A DNA stretch of 64,000 nt from Exilibacterium tricleocarpae (GTDB lineage: Bacteria > Pseudomonadota > Gammaproteobacteria > Pseudomonadales > Cellvibrionaceae): NCBI RefSeq assembly GCF_007004655.1, contig NZ_ML660091.1, forward strand, positions 371,524 to 435,523, written 5' to 3'. The notes below the pieces were generated by a model. That model was given only the letters and a program-made list of their open reading frames with translations, had not been told where the DNA came from and did no database searches. Below are positions 45,213-59,728 of this stretch, piece by piece; position 1 is the stretch's first letter, and each line of letters starts with the position of its first letter. Position numbers and translations under genes: made by a program.

Positions 45213-48191
45213 TCATCTAATCCAGACTTGATATTCGTTCCACAAGGTATTGATATCCTGCCCGGTGGTATTGCGAATGGCGCTTTCCCAGGTCCAGTTA
45301 TTGGGATTGTCGGGATTGGCCTGTTGGTTGAAGTCACGGACAAAATTACTGAAACCCGCCTCCTCTTGCAACCACGCCAAAAAGAAACCGGTGGTTTTGT
45401 AACCGCTGGTCCAGTGGCCGCCACTGCGCCGTTGCGACAGCGGCGCGTAGCCGGCTAAATGCCGCACCGTATCGGCCAGGCCCTCGACGGCCGAAGACGC
45501 CGCACCGCTGGCGTGCTGGTAGGCGTGGGTCATTTCGTGATAGAGAATCCCCGTCACTTCGTCCAACACATCGCGATTGGCGCTGCGCAGGCGATCGAGA
45601 TAGTAGGCGTTGATATTGACAGTGATCCGCGGCGGCCGCCCCGCTTTCCACGCGATCCCGTCGCGGTTGTTATCCCAGTTCTCGATCCGCAGCTCCAGTT
45701 CGGAAAAGTTCGGCACCGCAGCCGGCGTTTCGTATAAAAGCGGGCCTACCTCAGCGGCAATCCGATGAATATAGCCGTCCACATCGGGCACCAGTTCCCT
45801 GAACAACCGGGCACCGGACGAATTGTCGGGGCGATAATCAATCGACGGCTTCAACACGGCTTCCCAACCGGTCGCCGCCGTGCTGATACGGAAAGACGAC
45901 AAGGTATCATTGAAACCGAGAGTGGTCAGGTTGGTTATATCGCGGTTGAGACCGTGAACAGTGCCGCCGAAATTGATATGGCGAAACAGCTCGACCCGAT
46001 AACCGCTTTGCACGCGCACGGAAGAGACCACATCATTCCATCCGCTCGGCATGCTGGTGTAGTCCCCCGCGCCGCGACAAAAGCTGGCGCCGCGGTACTG
46101 GGAATGTTGATAGAAACAGACAACACCATCGGTTATGGTCACTTCTGTAGTGGCGCGCTTGGAGGCACCACTGTCATCCAGCACAGTCAGGGCCACCGTG
46201 TAGGTGCCTTTCGTCGTATAGGTATGTTCAGGGTTGGCGTCGTCGCTGGTGTTACCGTCACCGAAATCCCACTGGTAACTGATAATGCTGCCGTCAGGGT
46301 CTGAAGTGCCGGTACTGCGAAAGCGCACGACACTGTCGACCGTACCGGAGTAAGGACCGTTGACCCGTGCCACCGGTGCCTGGTTTTGACCTTCGGTAAC
46401 CGGCAGCAGGCGAAATTTCTGGTTACTGTTCCCGTGGCAGCCCCACTGCAGGATGTTGGCTCCATCGCCCGTTCTGGCTCCCTCCACATCGACACACTTG
46501 CCGCTGCCCACATTTTGCAGCGCAACAATATTGTTGCCGTAGTCGATAATACCGAAGCGTCTGCCGGTGGAACCGTCACAGGATTGCTGTTCGATATTTT
46601 GTCCGTCACTGCGATCGCCACTGCCGGGCCTGACCGCCAGGCATTGACTACTGTGTCGCGCCTGCAGGTCAATCTGGTTGTTGCCGCGGTCGCGCAGCTC
46701 CCACTGTTGGTTTTCGCCTTGATTGCAGTCCCATTGCACAATATTGCCACCACGGCTGGGGCTTCTGTCGGCAACATCGAGACATTTCCCGGAATGCAAC
46801 GCCTGCAGTGCGAAGGTGCCGGTGACCACCGGACCGACGCCATTGCGAAAGCCCGCCATTATCGGTGCCGTAATGTTTAACACGCGATGGTTATCGTGCC
46901 AGGCCGCGGTGCCGCGGGGCGCGCCGCGAAACGTTTTGCCCGGGTGCGACCAGAAGTTGCGGCGCCGGCAGCAACCCTGGATATTGTAAGACATCACCGT
47001 GCGCCAGCCGCCACTGCGATTGGCATAGCCGTGACCGAAGGGATAGGGAGAGCGGCTCGAGTCCTGTTCCGGATTGTGGCGTGCCCCCTGCAAGTGACCG
47101 ATTTCATGGGCAAAAGTGTAGTTACCTGTCGCGCAGTTTTTCGCCACTATGGCATAGGCGGAGTTGACATTGGAGCCGATCCCCCGGGCGATGCCGCAGT
47201 AGCCGCCGCCATTGGTAATCAGTATCGCCACATCGGCGCTGCGCTGTTCGAGCAGGCTGTGCACCTCGTCCATATAACCGTCGCGGCGACCCGCAAATCG
47301 ACTTAAATCGGTGCGCATATCGCCGGACTCCCGGTAGTTGACCTGCGCCATATGGGCCAGTCGTACACGGGCGTTGATATCACTGTCGGCGTAACCGGCA
47401 TTGGTTTCGGCGATGGCCAGATCGATAGTACCGGCGATATTGTTGCGGACCGCCGGCGTATAGACCACCAGCAAATCGATTACCGCGGTGTCGGCCCGGG
47501 GATCGGCCGCGGCGGTAACGGCCAGTTGCTCGAGCATCTGTTCGTCGACCAGAGAGGTATCGCCGTCAACGGCGGGCGGGTGATCTTCGGGTAAGGCATC
47601 AGGATTAATTTCCTTGATAACGTGCGCGCCATCGGCCAGCGGTTCGACCTTAAACAACCTGTCGGCATAGTGAATGGTCGCGGTGATTTCATTGCCGCGG
47701 CGAACGATGATAACTGAGTCCGCAACGGATTCTGTGTTGGATGCCGAGGGCTTTTTCAGACTACCCGCTGAAGGTTTCCCCACATTGCTTACTGAAGGCT
47801 TTCTCACATTACTTGCCGAGGACTCTCCACCACCGGCAGCGGTCATTTTGCCCTGGCCGGCGGCTATACTGCCGCGCCACACCACTGCCCCGGTACCGCT
47901 GGCATAAGCGTTTCGACGCACAGCCCGCAGGTCTATACCCCCGTCGAGGTTCAACAGGATACTGCCCTGCTCCTCACTCACTAAAGCAGCGTTCACGGTT
48001 CTTAAAACCTGATGATCAACTTCCCGATCCTCAACTGTTCTACTCAGGGCCACCGCAGCAGTTGACTGCAGTTTATCGGGCAACGGGGAAAACAGCGGTT
48101 GATCAACGTCCGCAGCCGCGGCACTGCCCGACACCAGGAGCCCGCAGAAAACAATGGCTGTAGCGACGGGTGAAAAAAATGGTTGGCGCAT
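45213..48191 (-). CDS. Secreted multidomain metalloprotease with lectin, PKD, crystallin and basic-secretory-protein domains
   Basis: 992 residues from ATG 48191 (GGAGG ribosome site at 48199-48203). A signal peptide (1-26) and a propeptide come first; the propeptide holds a KPS-rich repeat (~110-145). Next is a reprolysin-like M12 domain (~235-435) with HEIGHLQGARH at 362-372. A ricin-type lectin (~445-585, QxW repeats as in NQQWEL), a PKD domain (~590-680), a beta/gamma-crystallin-like region (~685-770) and a C-terminal basic-secretory-protein peptidase (~775-992) with HEMTHAYQH at 885-893 follow. Two independent zinc motifs in one chain are unusual. It is likely exported and may attack glycoproteins. 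LacI-like palindromes lie upstream. Confidence 0.88.
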   Translation of the reverse strand: MRQPFFSPVATAIVFCGLLVSGSAAAADVDQPLFSPLPDKLQSTAAVALSRTVEDREVDHQVLRTVNAALVSEEQGSILLNLDGGIDLRAVRRNAYASGTGAVVWRGSIAAGQGKMTAAGGGESSASNVRKPSVSNVGKPSAGSLKKPSASNTESVADSVIIVRRGNEITATIHYADRLFKVEPLADGAHVIKEINPDALPEDHPPAVDGDTSLVDEQMLEQLAVTAAADPRADTAVIDLLVVYTPAVRNNIAGTIDLAIAETNAGYADSDINARVRLAHMAQVNYRESGDMRTDLSRFAGRRDGYMDEVHSLLEQRSADVAILITNGGGYCGIARGIGSNVNSAYAIVAKNCATGNYTFAHEIGHLQGARHNPEQDSSRSPYPFGHGYANRSGGWRTVMSYNIQGCCRRRNFWSHPGKTFRGAPRGTAAWHDNHRVLNITAPIMAGFRNGVGPVVTGTFALQALHSGKCLDVADRSPSRGGNIVQWDCNQGENQQWELRDRGNNQIDLQARHSSQCLAVRPGSGDRSDGQNIEQQSCDGSTGRRFGIIDYGNNIVALQNVGSGKCVDVEGARTGDGANILQWGCHGNSNQKFRLLPVTEGQNQAPVARVNGPYSGTVDSVVRFRSTGTSDPDGSIISYQWDFGDGNTSDDANPEHTYTTKGTYTVALTVLDDSGASKRATTEVTITDGVVCFYQHSQYRGASFCRGAGDYTSMPSGWNDVVSSVRVQSGYRVELFRHINFGGTVHGLNRDITNLTTLGFNDTLSSFRISTAATGWEAVLKPSIDYRPDNSSGARLFRELVPDVDGYIHRIAAEVGPLLYETPAAVPNFSELELRIENWDNNRDGIAWKAGRPPRITVNINAYYLDRLRSANRDVLDEVTGILYHEMTHAYQHASGAASSAVEGLADTVRHLAGYAPLSQRRSGGHWTSGYKTTGFFLAWLQEEAGFSNFVRDFNQQANPDNPNNWTWESAIRNTTGQDINTLWNEYQVWIR

Positions 48192-48233
48192 GAAGTATCC
48201 TCCCATGGCGGGATTGATTTTGGACCCCTTTTT

Positions 48234-48245
48234 GACAACGTTGTC
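48234..48245. promoter_or_regulatory. LacI-like operator in the metalloprotease leader
   Basis: GACAACGTTGTC is a perfect 12-bp palindrome with central CG, 43 bases upstream of the ATG and inside the likely 5' leader. It is identical in its 12-bp core to a second site at 48331-48342. Such sequences are typical of LacI/GalR-family operators of carbohydrate use genes. Confidence 0.7.
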
Positions 48246-48310
48246 GCTGGCAAGGTTGAGCAATAGACACGCCATCTAGGGTAATTTATAAAATTTCTTC
48301 TAGATTTTTA

Positions 48311-48520: not shown

Positions 48521-50128
48521 TTACACCGCAAACCGCACCGCAACCTCATCGCTATCCGCGAGATTGCGATGGACGAGATCGGCCAGGGATGTGGTCTTTT
48601 CAATCAACTGCAGGCCATAATCTGAAAAGGTGTGGGCGTTGTAAACATTCTGTGACAGTAAGGGGTTGGTATAGATTTGCGTAAACGCATCATAGGCGAC
48701 CATGGCGTTGAGCAGATCACCGAACAACCCCTCCCCCACACTCCCCTGCGCGAACATTCCGACGATAAACTCCACTTGGTTAACATCGTTATAAAGGCCC
48801 TTTAACGCGTCGATTAATTGCGCGTCATCGGTCAACTCATCAAACCGGGACAGGGGTTTGAAACCAAACTGCCGCCGGTAGTCGTTATAGGGACGCAGCC
48901 TGAAGTCCCGCCCCATCCTTACCGTCGCATACTCGGCCCCCAACATAAACTCGGGAACGTTCTGCAGCGAGATGGCACCGGCGGCCTGGACGGAAGCCGC
49001 CTGAATAACACTGCCGAGCCCGGCGGCTTCAAACAGCGCGTTGTTTACCCGGTACTGCAGATGATCGTAGTTTCGCCCGCCTATTACTATCTGGTCGGGA
49101 ATCAAACCGTGCCAGCGATACAGCAGATCAAACTCCAGGGCGATCCAGGGCGTTCGGTACCACGCCTGTCGTTCGGCAAAAGTGTGGTCCAGTTTGAACA
49201 GCCTGAGCCCGGCAATATGGTTTATATACTCTTCGATGACCAGTTTCATCAGAATAACGGTATTGATCATTCGCGCGGTCTGAAAAAGTCGTTCATCGTC
49301 CCAGGCAGGATATCTGTTATGCAACTCGTCGCATATTCTGTTATGTTCGCGCAAAAACAACGTGCTGATAGCCACATAACCAATCGAGGAATTGCCCCGG
49401 TCGAGCCCGGTGGCATAGAGCTTGTGCTTGCGGTCCTGCGGCCAGGCGCCAAAAATTTGCGCCAGTCTCTCATCGCTCGTGTAAGGAAGCACCCGGTAGT
49501 GTTCCTTGACCTGCCAGTGGCCACCGGCGTCGACGGTGCCCAGATAGTCCGGGTATTCCGCGCCATCGATGTGTTGACTGCGCAGCTTGCCGCCGCGTTT
49601 TGAGCGCAGGGCATTTGCGGCGGTCTCTGTCAGCCCATAAATTTGACAGAGATCGATATTGTGGTTAGAGGTATTTTTGCGGCGGTCACCGGGGTCGACT
49701 CTAAGCACGCTGTCGGTAAACCATTGGGCGAAAAACATAAACAACAACGAGGAACGACTGGGCTTCATCGAGCCCTCTCTGCGGAACAAGGCGGTAACGG
49801 CACCGGTTGCTCCCGTGTCGGGATTGTATGGCCGGTCCTCGGGCAATTGGGTGGTATAACCCGGATCAGCCGGAGGCAAATGTCTGGCAAAATAAAGGCG
49901 ATTGGTCAACATCGGCCAGGTGGTGTAGTCGCCGACAGCCCCCTGTTCTTCGTAACCGGTCGGGGTCGGGGTGCTGCCGCGCGGCATGGGCTGGTGCGAC
50001 CACAGACTAAATGCCCTGGGGCGGGGTTTGATGATAGTGCATATGCGGTTGGTAGCGTACCGGTTTAAGAACGTGTTGGTGTAAGGGATTTTACTGACAA
50101 TATTAAAGATCCTATTGACGATTCCCAT
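48521..50128 (-). CDS. Cyclooxygenase-like animal haem peroxidase family protein
   Basis: 535 residues, no signal peptide. The sequence carries the COX/alpha-dioxygenase-type blocks: FFAQWFTDSVLR (~132-143), TLFLREHNRICDELH (~236-250), VIEEYINHIAG and LEFDLLYRWHGLIPDQI (~332-348). By alignment with cyclooxygenase, Tyr337 and His340 match the catalytic Tyr and proximal haem His, but the distal His site is Asp139 (Gln135-x3-Asp). Substrate is probably a fatty acid, an inference from the family. A ribosome site AGGGGA precedes the ATG at 50128. It diverges from the TIR gene across 569 bases. Confidence 0.85.
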   Translation of the reverse strand: MGIVNRIFNIVSKIPYTNTFLNRYATNRICTIIKPRPRAFSLWSHQPMPRGSTPTPTGYEEQGAVGDYTTWPMLTNRLYFARHLPPADPGYTTQLPEDRPYNPDTGATGAVTALFRREGSMKPSRSSLLFMFFAQWFTDSVLRVDPGDRRKNTSNHNIDLCQIYGLTETAANALRSKRGGKLRSQHIDGAEYPDYLGTVDAGGHWQVKEHYRVLPYTSDERLAQIFGAWPQDRKHKLYATGLDRGNSSIGYVAISTLFLREHNRICDELHNRYPAWDDERLFQTARMINTVILMKLVIEEYINHIAGLRLFKLDHTFAERQAWYRTPWIALEFDLLYRWHGLIPDQIVIGGRNYDHLQYRVNNALFEAAGLGSVIQAASVQAAGAISLQNVPEFMLGAEYATVRMGRDFRLRPYNDYRRQFGFKPLSRFDELTDDAQLIDALKGLYNDVNQVEFIVGMFAQGSVGEGLFGDLLNAMVAYDAFTQIYTNPLLSQNVYNAHTFSDYGLQLIEKTTSLADLVHRNLADSDEVAVRFAV

Positions 50129-50697
50129 TGATTTTCCCCTGTCGTCAAAGTGGTGGAAAACACCACATATCCGTTAACCGATTGCCACGATAGGCCGATA
50201 GATACGGTATAGGCAAGTGCCGGTTTCGCAAAAAAACAATGCAAAACCGGCCAACAATGAAAAATGCCGTTTTTAGTACTGAGGGAAAAAAAGAGGCCTG
50301 CGTATTATTCTAAATCGACCTTATAGTGGCTGCTAAAATACAGTGGCTGCTGAAGCCTGGCGAAGTCACCGTCTAATCGGGAGCAAGCGGGCTTTGGCGG
50401 GGTTGCGACAGTCATCACATGACGACTATAAGTATCATTTTTTAAATATCAGTTTAACTATAACTAACCTTTTTATATATTATTTAAAATCCATAAAAAC
50501 GATAACTCACATGGAATAGTATTACTTATCTCTGTCAGGATGACAGGCTTATAGCACAAATAATATGCATATAAATTAAAAGACGAAATAAGCATCCCGG
50601 TTAGTCCGACAAGTACTCACCAATACCGGCAGTTCTCTCCGCTTTCACGGTGACTGTGGGCGAGATTCGTCTAATTTTATACGTTCAAGGAGCCACC
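50129..50697. other. Long divergent intergenic region between the peroxidase and TIR genes
   Basis: 569 bases, AT-rich between 50400 and 50600. It holds a GTGGTG-GAAAA-CACCAC hairpin (50150-50166) just upstream of the peroxidase ribosome site, a larger inverted repeat (listed separately) and a direct repeat AGTGGCTGCT (50325-50334 and 50342-50351). It probably contains promoters for both genes. No reading frame with family resemblance is visible. Confidence 0.5.
50219..50251. repeat. 12-bp inverted repeat with A-rich loop
   Basis: GCCGGTTTCGCA (50219-50230) pairs with TGCAAAACCGGC (50240-50251), 11 of 12 positions, around a 9-base loop AAAAAACAA. It lies in the gap upstream of the peroxidase and TIR genes. 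On neither strand does it end in a T run outside the stem, so it looks like an operator or RNA structure rather than a terminator. Confidence 0.6.
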
Positions 50698-52722
50698 ATG
50701 ACCCGAGGTCAGCGTGACAGAACAGTTTCTGTTTTAACGACTGTCAAACTGCAAGCCCTGTTGGATTCCGGGCTAAACCCCACCCTTCGCAATCGACGGG
50801 CGCTGGCCGACTCCATGACTGCCGGTGGCGATAAGATCAGTGTGCACGGCGTGGAAGGTTGGTTTAAGCACGTAGACTCCAACTATGCACTGGCACGCGA
50901 GTCGCTCCATCCGGAGCTAAAGTCCTATCCTGTGCCGAGACGGCGCTGGAGCGCCATCCTGAATTTGTTTCCCGTCGATGCCGACGATTTGAGACTATCG
51001 GACCAAGCCTTCAAAGACATGTGCTTCGAGCGCCTGAAAACATCCGTTCCCGCCGCGACCACGGACACACCCGATCCGGACAGCGACTACCCGCCACTGG
51101 TATTCGTCATCTACGCTATGCGCGATGGAGAAAACCTCTATGAGGAGCTGCTCTGGCTGCGGGGCAGAGGCCTGAATCTCTGGTGGGACACCAGCCTCGC
51201 GGAAGACCCGCTATGGTCAAATACCGTAGCCACGGTCATCGAACGGGCCTGCGTGTGTTTGTTGTACCAGTCGGCGGCATTGATCAGCTCCACCCGTTGC
51301 CAGCGGGAACTGGAACTGGCCTGTCACCTCGGCAAAACCATTGTCGTATCACGCAACCCCGACACCACCGCGACACCGGCGCTGGCCCAGTTACTGGAGC
51401 AGCAGCCGTCACTGGTACGGCGGGAACACAACAGCCACTACTTGGACGAACTGGAGACAAACATTCGTGCTCACCTGGCAGCGGGCGATAGGGCCTCCGC
51501 CGGTCCTCCCCCCCTGGCCGCGCCAATGCCCGACCAACCTTCGATTGTGGTGTTGCCGCTAACCAACCTGACAGGACATCGGGAAGTGAATTACGTGGCC
51601 CAGGGTATCACCGAAGACATCATCACTTTACTGTCGCGTGTGCCGGAGCTTTTTGTTATCTCGCGCACGGCAAGCAATGCCTACGCCGGTACACTGACCG
51701 ATCACCGCACGATTCGTGAACGACTGGGAGTGCGCTTTGCGCTGGAAGGCAGTGTCCGCCGCTGCGGCGCAAAGTTGCGGGTGACGGCCATGCTCACAGA
51801 CCTGGTCAATGAGCAACAGCTCTGGGCAGACAAGTTCGAGGGCGAGTTTGACAAAATCTGGGATGTACAGGACGAGATCACCACCTGTATCTGCGCCCGG
51901 CTGCAGCCCAGAATCGTCATGACATCCCTCGACTATGGCTCGCGAACGGATAATTACGCCACTTGGCGATACTGGCAGCTGGGGTGGTACAAGTTGTTCG
52001 TAGACCCGCCGATACCGGCGCTGAGAGAGGCGCTGGATTGCTTCCACAAAGCATTGGAACACGAGCCGGATTACGCCCTCGCCCATGCCGGTATTGCCAA
52101 CGCCATGGGCACGGGTATGTTGTGGGGCGGCATCGGCCCCGAGGACTACCCCACTGCAAAAGCCCATGCCGAAACCGCTTACCGTCTTCTGCCCGACAAC
52201 CCGGCGGTATTGTACTCCATGGGTATGGTCGCTTTTATTGCGCCCAAACCGCTGACGGTAGCTCGCGACTGGGTCCGGCAGGCGGTGGATTTGGAACCGA
52301 GTAATGCCGCCTATGTGGCGGCATTGGGTTACCTTACGGCCCAGGTTGGCGAGGCAGACAAAGGGCTTGAAATCTGCGAGTATGCAGCGCGCCTCGCGCC
52401 GGGCGACAGGCGTCAGCCCTTTATTAACTATATGCTCAGCGCCACCCAGGTGGCGGCAGGCCGTTTTGAAGCCGCCGTGCAAACCATGCTGCTGAGCGAC
52501 CGCCTGACCAGCGTGGATTTCGTCTGGATCATAATAGGCTTTGCCTGGTTCAAACTGCATCGAATCGATAAGGTCGAGGAGGCTATTGCAAAATGCATTG
52601 CCCTCGGTGCCCGACCGCTATCGCTCTATCACTATTCTGTTACCTCGCGGCTCTGGCCACAGTACGGCATTGAGGAAAAGGAAGCGTATCTAAAAATCTG
52701 TGCGCAAATGGGTATTCGATAA
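50698..52722 (+). CDS. TIR domain protein with HTH-like N-terminus, TolB_N-like and TPR regions
   Basis: About 674 residues from ATG 50698, with AAGGAG 6 bases upstream; the longer frame lacks this. Residues 1-110 look helical and HTH-like (LNPTLRNRRALADSM). A TIR domain follows (131-235; VFVIYAMRDGENLYEELLWL) with the CQREL motif: Cys201 and Glu204, the position of the NADase glutamate. After a Pro-rich linker comes the domain seen behind adenylate cyclases and CadC proteins (SIVVLPLTNL, GITEDIITLLSR, LEGSVRR; ~265-395), then TPR helices (~415-674). It could be a signalling NADase or a regulator. It faces the flavoprotein gene tail to tail, 2 bases apart. Confidence 0.85.
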   Translation: MTRGQRDRTVSVLTTVKLQALLDSGLNPTLRNRRALADSMTAGGDKISVHGVEGWFKHVDSNYALARESLHPELKSYPVPRRRWSAILNLFPVDADDLRLSDQAFKDMCFERLKTSVPAATTDTPDPDSDYPPLVFVIYAMRDGENLYEELLWLRGRGLNLWWDTSLAEDPLWSNTVATVIERACVCLLYQSAALISSTRCQRELELACHLGKTIVVSRNPDTTATPALAQLLEQQPSLVRREHNSHYLDELETNIRAHLAAGDRASAGPPPLAAPMPDQPSIVVLPLTNLTGHREVNYVAQGITEDIITLLSRVPELFVISRTASNAYAGTLTDHRTIRERLGVRFALEGSVRRCGAKLRVTAMLTDLVNEQQLWADKFEGEFDKIWDVQDEITTCICARLQPRIVMTSLDYGSRTDNYATWRYWQLGWYKLFVDPPIPALREALDCFHKALEHEPDYALAHAGIANAMGTGMLWGGIGPEDYPTAKAHAETAYRLLPDNPAVLYSMGMVAFIAPKPLTVARDWVRQAVDLEPSNAAYVAALGYLTAQVGEADKGLEICEYAARLAPGDRRQPFINYMLSATQVAAGRFEAAVQTMLLSDRLTSVDFVWIIIGFAWFKLHRIDKVEEAIAKCIALGARPLSLYHYSVTSRLWPQYGIEEKEAYLKICAQMGIR

Positions 52723-54245: not shown

Positions 54246-56081
54246 TTAATAGTCCAATATTTCTCGAGTAAAATGCACCGCCGGGAGATGACAGCAACCC
54301 AACATGCGCATCAGTATGTTGTTCATGGTGGCGGGATCATTATCAAAACCGCTGTGGGTTTCACTGTGCGTCAGGGGCTCAGCCCCGCCTGAACCTTCAC
54401 TGTAGATAAACTCCAATTCGGAACCGTGTAAGGCGGTGCTGTATTTTTCCATACCCAAAAGCGCCGTGTTTCCGCTTGCCTCAAAAGCGGTGGAGACCAG
54501 ATAAAGCAGTGATTTCCGATAGACGCCGGCGACGCTGTCATCTCGCTCCAGTCTGTCGCTGAGGTTATAGACCGTCATATCATCGATACCGAAGGTTGCG
54601 CGGCCAGTCCCGAGCAATGGCCTGTAGTACTGATGAAAATCCGCCACCGTACAGGCGGGGGCCATTAGCGAACAAGTGGCGATGCGTCGCGACGCCGGCC
54701 CCGCGCCCAGCCGCTCGAGGAGATAGGCCAGCAACAGCGCGCCGGCGCTGTGCCCGACCAGGTGTATCTTCCAGTCGCCCTGGAGCAAATCCACGATGGC
54801 TTGCAGGACCTGAGTGCCGGCGCCGCCAGCCGTAAAGCCTTTGGCGGCCCCCCGCTTTATCTCCCGCCATATCGCCCGGCCCGGTACCCGGACCGACCGC
54901 GCCACAACACCGTCCCAGATGTCGTCAAACCCGGTTACCCGGTTTGGGTCGGCGCTTCTGCGCAGCACCAGGTCCTTTATCTCTTCCAGCAACCCGGTGT
55001 CGTACATAAAATGGAACGGATAGATACCGTTTTTCTTGTAGATATCCTTCATCGCCACGATACGTCGGGCGGATGCCTTGGTGCTGTTGAGTCCGCCGTG
55101 CGCATAGAGCAGCAGGTGTCGGTAGCGGTCCTGCCCCCTCAAGTACTGCGCCGTTTCCTGCACATCGGTGAGCTCGCTGAAGTAAGGCCCGGTCGGGTGA
55201 AATTCGCCATCATCAAGGTGAACAAAGTGCCCGGCGATATCGCTGCGGCGGACTTTGCGGCGACCAAACTGCACCGGGCGGCCGTCATCAACCGCAGAGT
55301 GAGCATCGGCATGAAAACGCGGTGTCGGCACCGTAAACCGCACCACCCAGGCATCGATCACATGGGTCTGCCAGTCGTCATAGCGCCACAGGGCCAGCCC
55401 GGCTTTAGCCCAGCGTTTACCCCATGAGTTCTGGACCCAGAAGCCTTCCTGGTTGTAACCCACAATGGCGAAAGCGTGGCCTCCCGCAGCGGTGACGGCG
55501 TATGGAATCGCACCTGTTTCTGCGTCCGGCTCATACCAACCGGCATGGACTCGCGCCGACACATAGATGGCTCCCGCCTCGTTGATGGCGGCGTGATAAT
55601 CGGCCAACCGCGGTCGCAGGCGATAGTAGGCCCCGGGTTTGTTGAACCGCGCCGAAACGGCGCGGCTGCGGGTCAGGTCGCCGGGGCGATTCTCCTCATA
55701 GGGCCACTCCCGATCGGTACAGACCCCCATATTCTGCCAGCCGCGAATAGCGCCGCGACAGCTGGAGCCGGCGTATTCATCACCGGGCCATTCATCAAAT
55801 TTACGGGCCATTTCGTAGAGCATACGCGCACTTACCGGACCCCTGGGGGCGGCGCCAATATCGCGCCGGCGCCGCACATCCAGCAGATTGAGCACGGCCG
55901 CCAGGGCAAAACCGGTGCAGGCACCTTCACCGCCCTGATCCAGTATTTGAATACCCGTCGGTGCCGGCCAGGCGTCCCTGACTGCGATAAGCGCGGGCTG
56001 GTAAACAAGATCACGAATATCATAGGTATCGGCCACCGCGTTTAACAGATGCCCGGTGGGTGTAACATAGCGATTTTCCAT
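54246..56081 (-). CDS. Papain-like cysteine protease fused to an alpha/beta hydrolase
   Basis: 611 residues from ATG 56081 (GAGGGG ribosome site just upstream). Residues ~20-245 form a C1 peptidase domain: Gln49 and Cys55 (DQGGEGACTGFA), His202 (GGHAFAIVGYN) and Asn218 (QNSWGKRWAKAGL) match the papain catalytic set. The second half has LLLYAHGGLNS (~315-325) and GHSAG with Ser445, the nucleophile elbow of an alpha/beta hydrolase. No signal peptide is present, so it is probably cytoplasmic. No comparable fusion is known to me. It is the first gene of a minus-strand operon with the flavoprotein. Confidence 0.83.
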   Translation of the reverse strand: MENRYVTPTGHLLNAVADTYDIRDLVYQPALIAVRDAWPAPTGIQILDQGGEGACTGFALAAVLNLLDVRRRRDIGAAPRGPVSARMLYEMARKFDEWPGDEYAGSSCRGAIRGWQNMGVCTDREWPYEENRPGDLTRSRAVSARFNKPGAYYRLRPRLADYHAAINEAGAIYVSARVHAGWYEPDAETGAIPYAVTAAGGHAFAIVGYNQEGFWVQNSWGKRWAKAGLALWRYDDWQTHVIDAWVVRFTVPTPRFHADAHSAVDDGRPVQFGRRKVRRSDIAGHFVHLDDGEFHPTGPYFSELTDVQETAQYLRGQDRYRHLLLYAHGGLNSTKASARRIVAMKDIYKKNGIYPFHFMYDTGLLEEIKDLVLRRSADPNRVTGFDDIWDGVVARSVRVPGRAIWREIKRGAAKGFTAGGAGTQVLQAIVDLLQGDWKIHLVGHSAGALLLAYLLERLGAGPASRRIATCSLMAPACTVADFHQYYRPLLGTGRATFGIDDMTVYNLSDRLERDDSVAGVYRKSLLYLVSTAFEASGNTALLGMEKYSTALHGSELEFIYSEGSGGAEPLTHSETHSGFDNDPATMNNILMRMLGCCHLPAVHFTREILDY

Positions 56082-56163
56082 TCCCAGCCCCTCGAAGCCT
56101 GTCCGTTTGTTTTCAGCTCGATATCCGATCATAACCACTGTGCAGGGAAAAGCATCCGCTCCA

Positions 56164-56222
56164 TAACTACGTTTAACTACGGCCCGCCCACCCACGGACG
56201 CCCCTAACTACGTTTAACTACG
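56164..56222. promoter_or_regulatory. Phased direct repeats in the shared divergent promoter
   Basis: TAACTACGTTTAACTACG occurs at 56164-56181 and, exactly repeated, at 56205-56222. Each copy contains two AACTACG heptamers 10 bp apart, giving four heptamers (56165, 56175, 56206, 56216). Pairs are 41 bp apart, about four helical turns, so all lie on one face of the DNA. They lie between the divergent papain/hydrolase and lipoprotein genes and look like tandem binding sites of a response-regulator-type protein. Confidence 0.75.
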
Positions 56223-56300
56223 ACGGCCTTGTCCAGTGCCTCGGGCGATCGGATACTGACCTCACACCCGCCGAAAACAACGATACCAAGGGGAATGCCG

Positions 56301-58754
56301 ATGATTAAGCATTGCGATAGTGCCTCGAGATGGGTCGGCCTACTGGCCGGTTTGACGCTGACAGCCTGCACCACGGTGTCGCAGACCGATATCAGTTACG
56401 CCGAAGCGCTGCTGGCGGAGTGGGGAACTGCCACCGCTTCCTCACCGATATTGAGCAGGAAAAAGGATCACTATAAATTTAATCTGAAGAAAGATGCCGA
56501 CAGCTTTTATGCCACCGCAAAATCTGAAATCAACGCCGGTATTGCGCGGCACACCCAACGGGTAACCTCGGTACTGCTGGCCGGGTCAACCCAGGCCAAC
56601 TCGGTAAGCAAGGGTCTGTTCGATGCGCAAAAACAAAAGTTCTCTGCAGTCCAGACCGCGGCACTGAGCGACAACGAGAAAAGTCGTATAGACAATGAAC
56701 AGAAATTTCTTATGGAGCAGGCCAGGCTAAATTATGGAATCTGCCTGAACGCAGCCGACAGTGAACTGGCGATTGCCGCCACCCTGCAAGACACCGATAA
56801 GATAAGTGCCTTAAACTCGCAAGCGCTGGCCCGGCGCAATGGATGTTTCAGCGAGTATTTGAACCGGATCGCCCCGCAAAGCCCGGCTGCCGATACCCTC
56901 CACCCCGGTCTGCCCGAGGATAACGTACCGGCGTTGAGCCGTATCCAATCACTGCCGTTTCAAGCAAAAGAGGCCTTACTTACCCCCTACTCCACCAATG
57001 ACATAAGCGGCTTGAGCGGCTCCCCGGCCCTCCCCGACCACGAGGCGATTGCACAGGCAGCAACCAATAACTTTCACAAAGCCATGTTTACCACCCTGGG
57101 TGGTGAGAATGTGGGGAATGCGCTTTTTGGGGTGGCAATGGTCTCTGTCAATCCGGGGTGGCGTACCCGGCAAAACTATAAAGCCGTTGTCAATATTCAA
57201 CCCCAATTGATATACAAAAGGGCAACCCGGAAAACAACACTAAACTACCTGAAAGACTCAACGGTTCCGGCAGAACTGCGAGCAGCCATTGCCTATCAGG
57301 TCGGTGAAGGTTGTGAGGAAAAAAATCTAGCACCACTTTGTAAAAATCACGAGGCATTGCTCCACAGCCTAAAAACCAACTGGCAACATGACAGCCATGC
57401 TGATGTAGTCAGCAACCCATCGGCAGTAACGGTGACGGCTATATCACCGGTTTCTTACGGGCAGACACTGGATCTGAAAAATCGGCAGTTGACGCAACTG
57501 CATCTAACGACAATGTTGGCGGCGGCGTTGCAGAACGCCGGTCTGGAAAAAGCCGCTGAGTTCTATGTGGATTTCTCCAAACAACAACGCCTGGACTTTG
57601 CTTCCCGCAATAAACGCAACAACGTCAACGTTTTTTCCCATGGTAATTCAGTGATTGGCATCGAAGTAGGGCCTGAATTCCTCGCCGCCGCCGCGGGGCG
57701 AGAAGGCTCCGCCTGGCGCCTGCAACGCCAGACAATACCGGTTTTATTGGCTATAGATATAGTCGACGAGAAGGATGACCATTATCGACCTATTTTTGTA
57801 AAGTCCTGCAAGCCGCACGATGATCTAGAGCACTATTGTCTCTTGGAGCCGAAATTGCAGTTCGTCAATACCCACAGGTGGTTGCCAATAGATAAGAACC
57901 GTTTCAATATACCGTTTCTGCCGGAACGAAAACTGCTGTCAACAAAGCAGCTAACCGACGTACAAAAAACGCTACGTAATGCTTGCGGAGAAGAACCGAA
58001 AGACACAGGCCGGCAAAACAATCAATTTTTACAGGCCAGATGCAATGAGCTACGGGCCAAACTGCTTGGCCACTACAACTATTCCAGCCTGCCAATTTTG
58101 GCTCAAGCGAAACCCAAGCCCGCTATTCAACACATTTATCCCGACAAAGTCACCCTTGCGGTTGCAGACGGAAAAGTAAAGCCGAAGCAAGTCCGCTTTA
58201 TTGTATCCGGAAGCGACCTGAGAACTTTAGCCGCTGGTGACAATACGGATATCACCGGCCAGATAGCCCCCTACTTCGACGGCCAGGCTGTCGAGGCGGC
58301 AGCCCTGGTCGGCGACAGTATCGTAATAGATATGCGGATTACCGACAATAAAGGGCCGGTTATGTTCAAGATAGGCTACGAAGGCGGCTCCATAAATTCC
58401 GGCACATCACCCGCAACCCTGGCTCAGGTACTGACGAAAGTATCAAGCCAGGGACCGAATGAAGTGCAGTATGTGATCAAGTCCGACGCCATAGGTGCCG
58501 AACTCACGTTACCGCCCGGCCAACGGGATTTGCCTGAGCAGGTTGGCAAACTGCTGCAAACGATCCACACGCCGCCAAATCCCGCTACCGGGGTAGTCGC
58601 TTTGCCCGGTACCTGCGCCTACCTCGTTACCCAAAAACCAAACCTGGTGACTCAGCTCGGCGACTGTACGGCCGGCACAGATGAGAGAGCCCCGGAGTAC
58701 CTGTCGCCAATCCATTCAGAGTCAGCCAAGACTGATCTCGTTACTCAGGAGTAA
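56301..58754 (+). CDS. Large lipoprotein of unknown family
   Basis: About 817 residues from ATG 56301, with AAGGGG 7 bases upstream. The N-terminus has a lipoprotein signal (hydrophobic segment, then LTAC with Cys23; Thr at +2 suggests the outer membrane). The remainder is a mix of a coiled-coil-prone stretch (~55-165; many Lys/Asn/Gln), a mixed region with cysteines (~170-560) and a beta-rich C-terminal half (~600-760; VRFIVSGSDLRTL). I do not recognise any family. It is probably co-transcribed with the papain gene, 5 bases downstream, and lies divergent from the papain/hydrolase gene. Confidence 0.78.
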   Translation: MIKHCDSASRWVGLLAGLTLTACTTVSQTDISYAEALLAEWGTATASSPILSRKKDHYKFNLKKDADSFYATAKSEINAGIARHTQRVTSVLLAGSTQANSVSKGLFDAQKQKFSAVQTAALSDNEKSRIDNEQKFLMEQARLNYGICLNAADSELAIAATLQDTDKISALNSQALARRNGCFSEYLNRIAPQSPAADTLHPGLPEDNVPALSRIQSLPFQAKEALLTPYSTNDISGLSGSPALPDHEAIAQAATNNFHKAMFTTLGGENVGNALFGVAMVSVNPGWRTRQNYKAVVNIQPQLIYKRATRKTTLNYLKDSTVPAELRAAIAYQVGEGCEEKNLAPLCKNHEALLHSLKTNWQHDSHADVVSNPSAVTVTAISPVSYGQTLDLKNRQLTQLHLTTMLAAALQNAGLEKAAEFYVDFSKQQRLDFASRNKRNNVNVFSHGNSVIGIEVGPEFLAAAAGREGSAWRLQRQTIPVLLAIDIVDEKDDHYRPIFVKSCKPHDDLEHYCLLEPKLQFVNTHRWLPIDKNRFNIPFLPERKLLSTKQLTDVQKTLRNACGEEPKDTGRQNNQFLQARCNELRAKLLGHYNYSSLPILAQAKPKPAIQHIYPDKVTLAVADGKVKPKQVRFIVSGSDLRTLAAGDNTDITGQIAPYFDGQAVEAAALVGDSIVIDMRITDNKGPVMFKIGYEGGSINSGTSPATLAQVLTKVSSQGPNEVQYVIKSDAIGAELTLPPGQRDLPEQVGKLLQTIHTPPNPATGVVALPGTCAYLVTQKPNLVTQLGDCTAGTDERAPEYLSPIHSESAKTDLVTQE

Positions 58755-58759
58755 CAACC

Positions 58760-59728
58760 ATGAAAAACACTACCTGCGATCAAAAGCCACCCACTCCATC
58801 GCAACGGCGGAGACGACATTCCAACCCTTATGGTCGTCGAACAGGCGGCGGGACTTTCCGGTTGGGCTGTTTAAAAGATCTACCGGATAGACGCGATATT
58901 TCAGTGGCACGAGTCAACAAGGATAATAATCTGACCCACACTATCCAGGCTCTTTCGGAAAAAATAACATCCGCCAAAGAATCCTTTTTACTTTCGCCGG
59001 AAGAAGCATCGCTACCCGCTAGCTGTGAGTTAGCCCACGTCCTGTTTACAGAAATAGAAGACCAACGAACGCTGGGAAGCTGTACAGCCAATGCCGTTAT
59101 CAGCCTGATCGAGTACCTGATCAAATCAGCTAGTAGCAGGAATACGGATCTTTCCCGCATTTTTCTGTATAAAGTCACAAGAAACCTGATGGGTGAGAGA
59201 GGCCTCGGGGACAGCGGTGCTTTTATTCGCGATACGATTAAGGCGATGAAAATTTTTGGCGCTCCGCCGGAGAGGTGGTGGCCTTACGATACCGAGAATT
59301 TTGACGATGAACCGGATGCGTTCATTTATACCATGGCCCAAAACTTCCAGTCTATAGACTACCTGCGCCTTGACGCCCCAGGCGTCAACGGCGGCGAAGA
59401 AACGCTTAAAAACGTTAAGTGTTGTATCGCAGACGGTTTTCCGGCTGCGTTTGGTTTTTGGGTAACAGAGGCTGTTTTCGAAGCTGGCGTGGGGACTGGC
59501 GTCATACACCTACCGGACGATTCCACAGCGATCAGCGGCGGACACGCCGTGTTGGCCGTTGGCTACGACGATGCAAAAAAGGCGATAAAAATCCGCAACT
59601 CCTGGGGCACCAGTTGGGGCGACAACGGCTATGGATGGCTCTCGTACGACTACGTGTTGGAAGGTATGGCTTTCGATTTCTGGACCATTTTCAGCCAGGA
59701 ATGGGTGGATACACAGACTTTCGCCTGA
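58760..59728 (+). CDS. Papain-like cysteine protease (C1 family)
   Basis: 322 residues. The AGGAG ribosome site lies inside the lipoprotein gene's end. A basic, unstructured N-terminus (1-40; QRRRRHSNPYGRRTGG) precedes a C1 peptidase domain with Gln102 and Cys108 (EDQRTLGSCTANA), His262 (GGHAVLAVGYD) and Asn280 (RNSWGTSWGDNGYGWL). All catalytic residues are present. There is no export signal and no propeptide that I can identify. It resembles the papain domain of the fusion protein encoded 2.7 kb away, but with clearly different sequence. The third gene of the operon, a small membrane protein, follows. Confidence 0.88.
   Translation: MKNTTCDQKPPTPSQRRRRHSNPYGRRTGGGTFRLGCLKDLPDRRDISVARVNKDNNLTHTIQALSEKITSAKESFLLSPEEASLPASCELAHVLFTEIEDQRTLGSCTANAVISLIEYLIKSASSRNTDLSRIFLYKVTRNLMGERGLGDSGAFIRDTIKAMKIFGAPPERWWPYDTENFDDEPDAFIYTMAQNFQSIDYLRLDAPGVNGGEETLKNVKCCIADGFPAAFGFWVTEAVFEAGVGTGVIHLPDDSTAISGGHAVLAVGYDDAKKAIKIRNSWGTSWGDNGYGWLSYDYVLEGMAFDFWTIFSQEWVDTQTFA

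Follow-up and report, generated by a model that had tools for sequence, protein, structure and literature searches.

TIR domains have been described mainly in two roles, as scaffolds in immunity and as effectors that cleave NAD. The NADase TIRs AbTir, TcpC and SARM1 carry a glutamate at the catalytic position, preceded at position -4 by the tryptophan of the WxxxE motif. According to the accessible part of PMC11374754, AbTir depends on this tryptophan whereas TcpC does not, and the residue is less well kept among non-catalytic TIRs and among those that form no cyclic ADP-ribose. Among the larger proteins built around this domain, the 'group 6' TIR-TPR proteins, which are found mostly in Actinobacteria, combine an N-terminal TIR with C-terminal TPRs, as does the protein described here. 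The accessible part of PMC7075850 mentions neither a FlgO/TolB_N part nor an extra N-terminal domain for this group, and the terms TolB, HTH and helix-turn-helix are absent from its text. TIR is furthermore listed, together with FGS and with caspase and alpha/beta hydrolase, among the parts of the ternary conflict systems in the available part of PMC7159879. In none of the papers searched was a TIR domain found on a TolB_N/TPR (COG5616) tail.

The protein analysed here is encoded in a 64,000-nt stretch of the Exilibacterium tricleocarpae contig NZ_ML660091.1 (the window). It is a soluble, TIR-containing member of the FlgO/TolB_N-TPR sensor family and carries a conserved N-terminal domain in addition (Table 1). 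Its reading frame offers an alternative, longer GTG start at 50650, and the ATG at 50698 is preferred because the full-length orthologue, located on a contig of a Gammaproteobacteria metagenome-assembled genome (L019), aligns with the latter; the Shine-Dalgarno-like sequence ends five bases ahead of this ATG. No membrane-like segment was detected by a 19-residue hydropathy scan of the window protein and its orthologue, with best values of 0.80 and 1.03, respectively, in the 80 residues preceding the FlgO/TolB_N-like part, and of 1.41 and 1.22 anywhere in the protein.

Table 1 Features of the TIR gene and its surroundings, in window coordinates
Feature	Position	Strand	Remarks
Haem peroxidase gene, animal-type, possibly associated	48521..50128	-	Pfam An_peroxidase, 1.3e-49
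Shine-Dalgarno-like AAGGAG ahead of ATG 50698	50687..50692	+	Sequence read directly
TIR-FlgO/TolB_N-TPR protein gene	50698..52722	+	674 aa; full-length orthologue L019:7989-10037, 52% identical
N-terminal conserved domain, residues 1-92	50698..50973	+	Predicted helical; HTH-like by pattern only
TIR domain, residues 132-235	51091..51402	+	Pfam TIR_2; 7-row TIR alignment/PDB profile
Glu204 codon, conserved TIR glutamate	51307..51309	+	TIR alignment
FlgO/TolB_N-like domain, residues 281-405	51538..51912	+	Alignment of 15 members; weak PDB profile match
TPR tail, residues 406-674	51913..52719	+	Weak Pfam TPR matches; OGT and designed TPR PDB chains
Flavin amine-oxidase-like enzyme, 505 aa	52725..54242	-	Pfam Amino_oxidase, 2.5e-28; L019 homologue 58% identical
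Papain-like peptidase + alpha/beta hydrolase protein	54246..56081	-	Pfam Peptidase_C1 over cut-off; L019 homologue 60% identical
Two 21-nt direct repeats upstream of the papain/hydrolase gene	56161..56222	.	Candidate operator, tentative

The TIR domain and the FlgO/TolB_N-TPR tail

The initial annotation had proposed that a TIR with a glutamate at the catalytic position, Glu204 (CQREL), takes the place that a CadC domain or a cyclase holds in related proteins. This assignment is borne out by the profile match to TIRs of the PDB and by the aligned glutamate, and the residue number is correct. Pfam TIR_2 (PF13676) covers residues 135-229/230 with 24.0 bits for the full protein and 25.8 bits for residues 1-274, just below the curated cut-off of 28 bits, over which the orthologue scores (37.8 and 40 bits). 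A seven-row TIR profile, composed of the window protein, its orthologue, L054, L044, L045, L049 and L051, recovers 79 distinct sequences of the PDB at E ≤ 0.1, the strongest at 2.4e-12, and nearly all of the 60 shown bear the names of TIR, TLR, MyD88, SARM1 or plant TIR resistance proteins. As TIR chains of AbTir and SARM1 are included in the matches, the window protein has the TIR fold in common with these NADases. A single-sequence PDB search with the full window protein lists only matches to the TPR tail, with no TIR match at E ≤ 1, and a two-row profile of residues 1-274 gives no match at E ≤ 10, the latter search being insensitive in that TIR chains are missed too.

Glu204 is invariant in all seven aligned TIRs, as one of seven invariant columns, and corresponds to the conserved alpha-C glutamate that AbTir, TcpC and SARM1 have as well. 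The aspartate of the WWD motif is also kept. However, the WxxxE tryptophan of these NADases is replaced by Arg200 in both orthologues. Since the glutamate is present, the tryptophan is replaced and the need for the latter differs between TIRs, NAD cleavage by the window TIR is possible as judged from its residues, and a cyclic product would be less likely.

The C-terminal part of the protein belongs to a widespread type of tail. Residues 281-405 align with 14 other FlgO/TolB_N-like domains; at E ≤ 1, Pfam recognises FlgO in nine and TolB_N in five of the 15 aligned members, the window member being matched by neither, and a profile of the region weakly matches FlgO-domain chains in the PDB (E 0.047). 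The TPR matches of the window protein are weak and all below the Pfam cut-off, and in the single-sequence PDB search the tail region 425-659 matches OGT and designed TPR chains. The protein matches 561 plasmid records, and the 30 listed all start at residue 282 or 283. At E ≤ 1e-20, tail matches are present in the own genome and in 10 of 57 other genomes; these matches, the gene itself aside, start at residue 245 or later.

The N-termini found on this tail were compared for 15 homologues from the own genome and its relatives, one TPR-only match (L005) having been dropped from 16 loci. Ten carry Trans_reg_C, two Guanylate_cyc (L004 and L009, in L009 below the Pfam cut-off) and one GerE (L003), and two have no N-terminal Pfam match (L013, L017). 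The earlier statement that most tail proteins have a class III cyclase or a winged helix of the CadC type at their N-terminus thus agrees with 12 of the 15 homologues. Because 11 of the 15 have a DNA-binding N-terminus and two a cyclase, the tail appears commonly to drive gene control or messenger synthesis. The window protein has the FlgO/TolB_N-TPR tail in common with the CadC-type and cyclase proteins, and its FlgO/TolB_N-like part is 30-36% identical to that of eight CadC-type members, the two cyclase proteins standing outside the alignment; three tail proteins (L004, L009, L072) are absent from it as they were missed by the anchor pattern. The difference lies in the output domain, which is a winged helix, a LuxR-type HTH or a cyclase in these families, whereas it is a TIR in the window protein. 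The LuxR-type case is a paralogue in the own genome (L003:910-2658, minus strand), with GerE on a FlgO/TolB_N-TPR tail.

The combination of TIR with this tail had been regarded as one of a kind, a view that was abandoned in the light of three further proteins, from Novosphingobium sp. RL4 (L054:3962-5935) and from two genomes of the window's order (L071, L072). All three have an N-terminal TIR_2 over the cut-off (74.7, 62.8 and 72.7 bits, respectively) and C-terminal TPR matches, and the FlgO/TolB_N-like part is aligned in L054 and L071 and recognised by eye in L072. They begin with the TIR, whereas the window protein has the extra domain of residues 1-92 ahead of it, and they have a hydrophobic segment between TIR and FlgO/TolB_N (hydropathy 1.84, 1.72 and 2.46), which the window protein lacks. 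A protein in another genome of the order (L073:1-1992, minus strand) has TIR_2, Guanylate_cyc and NB-ARC/AAA in a row within one open frame; the frames of L071, L072 and L073 are cut by the end of the sequence stretch examined. The TIR, FlgO/TolB_N and TPR parts are therefore already found together elsewhere, and what is unusual and new in the window is the extra conserved domain of residues 1-92 together with the fixed pair of neighbouring enzymes.

The N-terminal domain

Residues 1-92 are the best-conserved part of the protein, with 67 of 92 residues identical to the orthologue (73%), compared to 55% for the TIR, 51% for the FlgO/TolB_N-like part, 54% for the TPR tail and 26-28% for the linkers. 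The orthologue, which is the only relative found to contain this domain, was detected by scanning a genome collection for exact 8-residue patterns with residues 1-274 as the query; the same scan with the full protein gave no confirmed relatives, and such a scan of genome contigs, run on sampled and overlapping genome sets, detects only relatives that share an exact 8-residue pattern. In sequence and profile searches, residues 1-92 aligned in no other genome among 369 of the class, 398 of the phylum, 341 of the order, 200 relatives of G672 and 145 relatives of the L019 genome; these sets overlap, those of class, phylum and order including the own genome and the set of 145 the L019 genome. None of the other profile matches listed starts before profile position 115; all of them begin within the linker or the TIR.

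Within the domain, the run RR.LA..MT..G.KISVHGVEGWFK ... VP.RRW..IL.LF resembles by eye what we take to be a Cro/YdaS-like HTH with an insertion. Homology searches for an HTH were negative throughout: there was no HTH match in Pfam with residues 1-274 and no match in PHROGs with residues 1-115, and nothing significant was obtained from the PDB profile, Foldseek or hhalign against YdaS-, CadC- and LuxR-type proteins. The hhalign comparison with 13 YdaS-type proteins scored 13.9, the highest of seven templates (others 10.3-12.5), and lies within the range of shuffled sequences, of which at least 5 of 60 scored 14.9-16.5. AF2 of the N-terminal region places helices at residues 15-23, 31-42 and 49-62 with a low mean pLDDT of 46, and the best of 15 Foldseek matches to this low-confidence model is a homeodomain at E 2.2, none reaching E ≤ 0.001. 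A full-length AF2 model from a two-row alignment had a mean pLDDT of 41 and was discarded as unusable. The isoelectric point of the region is 10.3 in the window protein compared to 8.1 in the orthologue, so that it is clearly basic in the window protein only. Of the HTH-like region annotated in front of the TIR, the separate domain is thus upheld by its conservation, and its HTH nature is not, given the non-significant profile, fold and family tests; the fold prediction suggested at the time yields the three helices, at a confidence and with a Foldseek result that leave the type of fold unsupported.

The neighbouring enzymes and their relatives

The flavin gene ends tail-to-tail with the TIR gene, 2 nt from its stop codon, and is preceded by the papain/hydrolase gene, the start of which (56081) was taken from the orthologue, the open reading frame itself opening at 56195. 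The alpha/beta hydrolase Pfam matches of the window papain/hydrolase protein are below the cut-off. Both papain/hydrolase orthologues contain the Cys, His and Asn motifs of the peptidase and the GHSxG motif of the hydrolase, all of which are presumably catalytic. In the window and in L019 the three genes have identical order and orientation, with products that are 52, 58 and 60% identical, and the gaps in L019 measure 35 and 41 nt. No other gene is common to the 64-kb window and the 16.7-kb stretch of the 38-kb L019 contig (ORFs of at least 100 aa, E ≤ 1e-5), apart from antisense shadow ORFs of the three genes and a weak match of the papain part to the second papain gene (58760-59728). The arrangement is seen in two genomes only, the linkage resting on this one comparison, and the TIR protein and its two neighbour enzymes are probably a small and rare system. 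A cassette of peptidase/hydrolase and flavin enzyme was not met in the papers searched.

The haem peroxidase was considered and rejected as a fixed member of the cassette: it is absent from the L019 stretch, and the peroxidase at another papain/hydrolase locus (L034) has no BLAST match at 1e-4 to that of the window. The region 45213-48275 (minus strand) encodes a 1020-aa protein with reprolysin-like, ricin-B lectin, PKD, crystallin-like and BSP peptidase domains, and the region 56292-59728 (plus strand) an 820-aa protein for which no Pfam match exceeds the cut-off; behind it, at 58760-59728, lies a second papain-like gene.

The direct repeats upstream of the papain/hydrolase gene (copies at 56161-56181 and 56202-56222) have an identical 18-nt core, and each is a 10-nt tandem. 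With up to two mismatches, this core occurs at two places in the 7.18-Mb genome, both of them here, and the reversed control at none. The repeats are a possible operator of the divergent genes; they were not found in the counterpart region of L019. An operator common to the TIR gene and the operon was rejected, since the two promoter regions have no 10-mer in common. Imperfect inverted repeats occur in both regions, and perfect palindromes (7-nt arms, at most 12 nt between them) in neither.

Homologues of the papain/hydrolase protein are present in the own genome, in 10 of 298 other genomes of the phylum and in 23 plasmid records. Nine of the ten other genomes were extended around the homologue, G447 being left out as it belongs to the same genus as G444, and the neighbours were scanned in part; a TIR or flavin gene was found by BLAST at 1e-4 in none of the nine. 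In five of them and in one of four annotated plasmid loci, caspase, trypsin, FGE-sulfatase or bpMoxR is encoded nearby or fused: FGE-sulfatase in L033, An_peroxidase with Trypsin_2 in L034, FGE-sulfatase with a bpMoxR AAA in L038, a caspase in the adjacent gene in L039 and in the same protein in L041, and trypsin-like, YEATS-associated and caspase genes on the plasmid. The four remaining genome loci (L035, L036, L037, L040) have no such partner among the proteins scanned. A Palleronia plasmid locus (L089) has a haem peroxidase and an S8 peptidase, and the other two plasmid loci none of these genes beyond alpha/beta hydrolase.

A stress or conflict role for the cassette is plausible, because some papain/hydrolase homologues lie beside parts described for ternary conflict systems (PMC7159879, accessible part). 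A distant homologue (L038) is close to a bpMoxR-matching AAA protein, whereas the window locus has no match to MoxR, vWA or STAND among the eight proteins scanned, including the TIR protein. PADLOC, run on five proteins, assigned no family to the TIR protein, the peroxidase, the papain/hydrolase protein or the 820-aa protein; the flavin protein had three matches, the best at 6.7e-11 over its FAD-binding start, which were judged unspecific. A phage or plasmid origin was also considered and dropped, as residues 1-274 match neither plasmids nor phages at E ≤ 1; in viral contigs no match was confirmed for residues 1-274 or for the full protein.

Possible roles of the TIR protein

Starting from the TIR, FlgO/TolB_N-like and TPR parts, the conservation of residues 1-92 and the three-gene arrangement in two genomes, we consider it a realistic, if not quite probable, reading that the TIR protein serves the papain/hydrolase and amine-oxidase cassette as its dedicated regulator or trigger, working as a soluble, cytosolic one-component signal protein. 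A signal, which may be crowding or a partner (protein or peptide), would be received by the FlgO/TolB_N-like domain together with the TPR tail and would alter the assembly of the TIR, which may then cleave NAD or act as a docking or oligomerisation surface. The N-terminal domain would provide the specific output, most likely by binding either DNA or one fixed partner, and would control, or work with, the adjacent papain/hydrolase and amine-oxidase operon as its putative target. The same three-gene order, the conserved residues 1-92, the regulators of the tail family, Glu204 and the lack of a membrane-like segment argue for a dedicated regulator, as do the contexts of the papain/hydrolase homologues, which are known from conflict systems in the accessible part of PMC7159879. 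Against it stand the restriction to two genomes, the non-significant HTH tests, the lack of a common operator, the absence of the repeat from L019, the arginine in place of the tryptophan, an N-terminus that is basic in the window protein only and the lack of a PADLOC match.

Alternatively, and somewhat doubtfully, the TIR protein could be the effector of a self-killing or anti-phage system and no transcription regulator, in which case the N-terminal domain and the TPRs would sense an invader or damage, the TIR would deplete NAD, and the papain/hydrolase protein and flavin enzyme would be co-effectors. The conserved Glu204 and the rare and patchy distribution are consistent with such an effector, and so are the caspase, trypsin or bpMoxR genes accompanying papain/hydrolase homologues in some genomes, TIR, caspase and alpha/beta hydrolase all being listed among ternary conflict parts (PMC7159879, accessible part). 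However, the TIR protein matches no known defence family, no invader-sensing ATPase or nuclease is present among the eight proteins scanned, the WxxxE tryptophan is missing, and the tail family usually serves gene regulators. The arginine at that position in both orthologues would instead fit a non-enzymatic TIR scaffold, in which the N-terminal domain and the TPRs bridge partners, for example the papain/hydrolase protein with the flavin enzyme. TPR and TIR are interaction domains, which also speaks for bridging, on the assumption that all three proteins are cytosolic (the membrane-segment scan covered the TIR protein). A scaffold is nevertheless unlikely, as Glu204 and the WWD aspartate are retained and a purely scaffolding TIR need not keep the glutamate. 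Very unlikely is an ordinary TolB_N/TPR regulator with neighbours kept by chance and a gene order derived from one recent DNA transfer. That only two genomes are known and that none of the nine extended papain/hydrolase loci has a TIR or flavin gene would agree with chance; yet recent transfer does not explain the arrangement, since order, orientation and close spacing were retained although identity between the proteins has fallen to 52-60%, and the flanks differ.

The dedicated regulator reading remains our tentative preference. Taken further, the protein might be a TIR-based one-component transcription regulator, which we regard as quite improbable: residues 1-92 would represent a new family of DNA-binding domains, with the operator of the papain/hydrolase and flavin enzyme operon as its site, TIR assembly or NAD cleavage would be the switch, set by the TPRs, and the cassette would serve cell death or stress. 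With a TIR at the place where its relatives hold a DNA-binding domain or a cyclase, an additional conserved domain and a fixed pair of enzyme genes beside it, the protein would define a small peptidase/hydrolase/flavin-enzyme cassette and would make direct gene control by TIR signalling testable.
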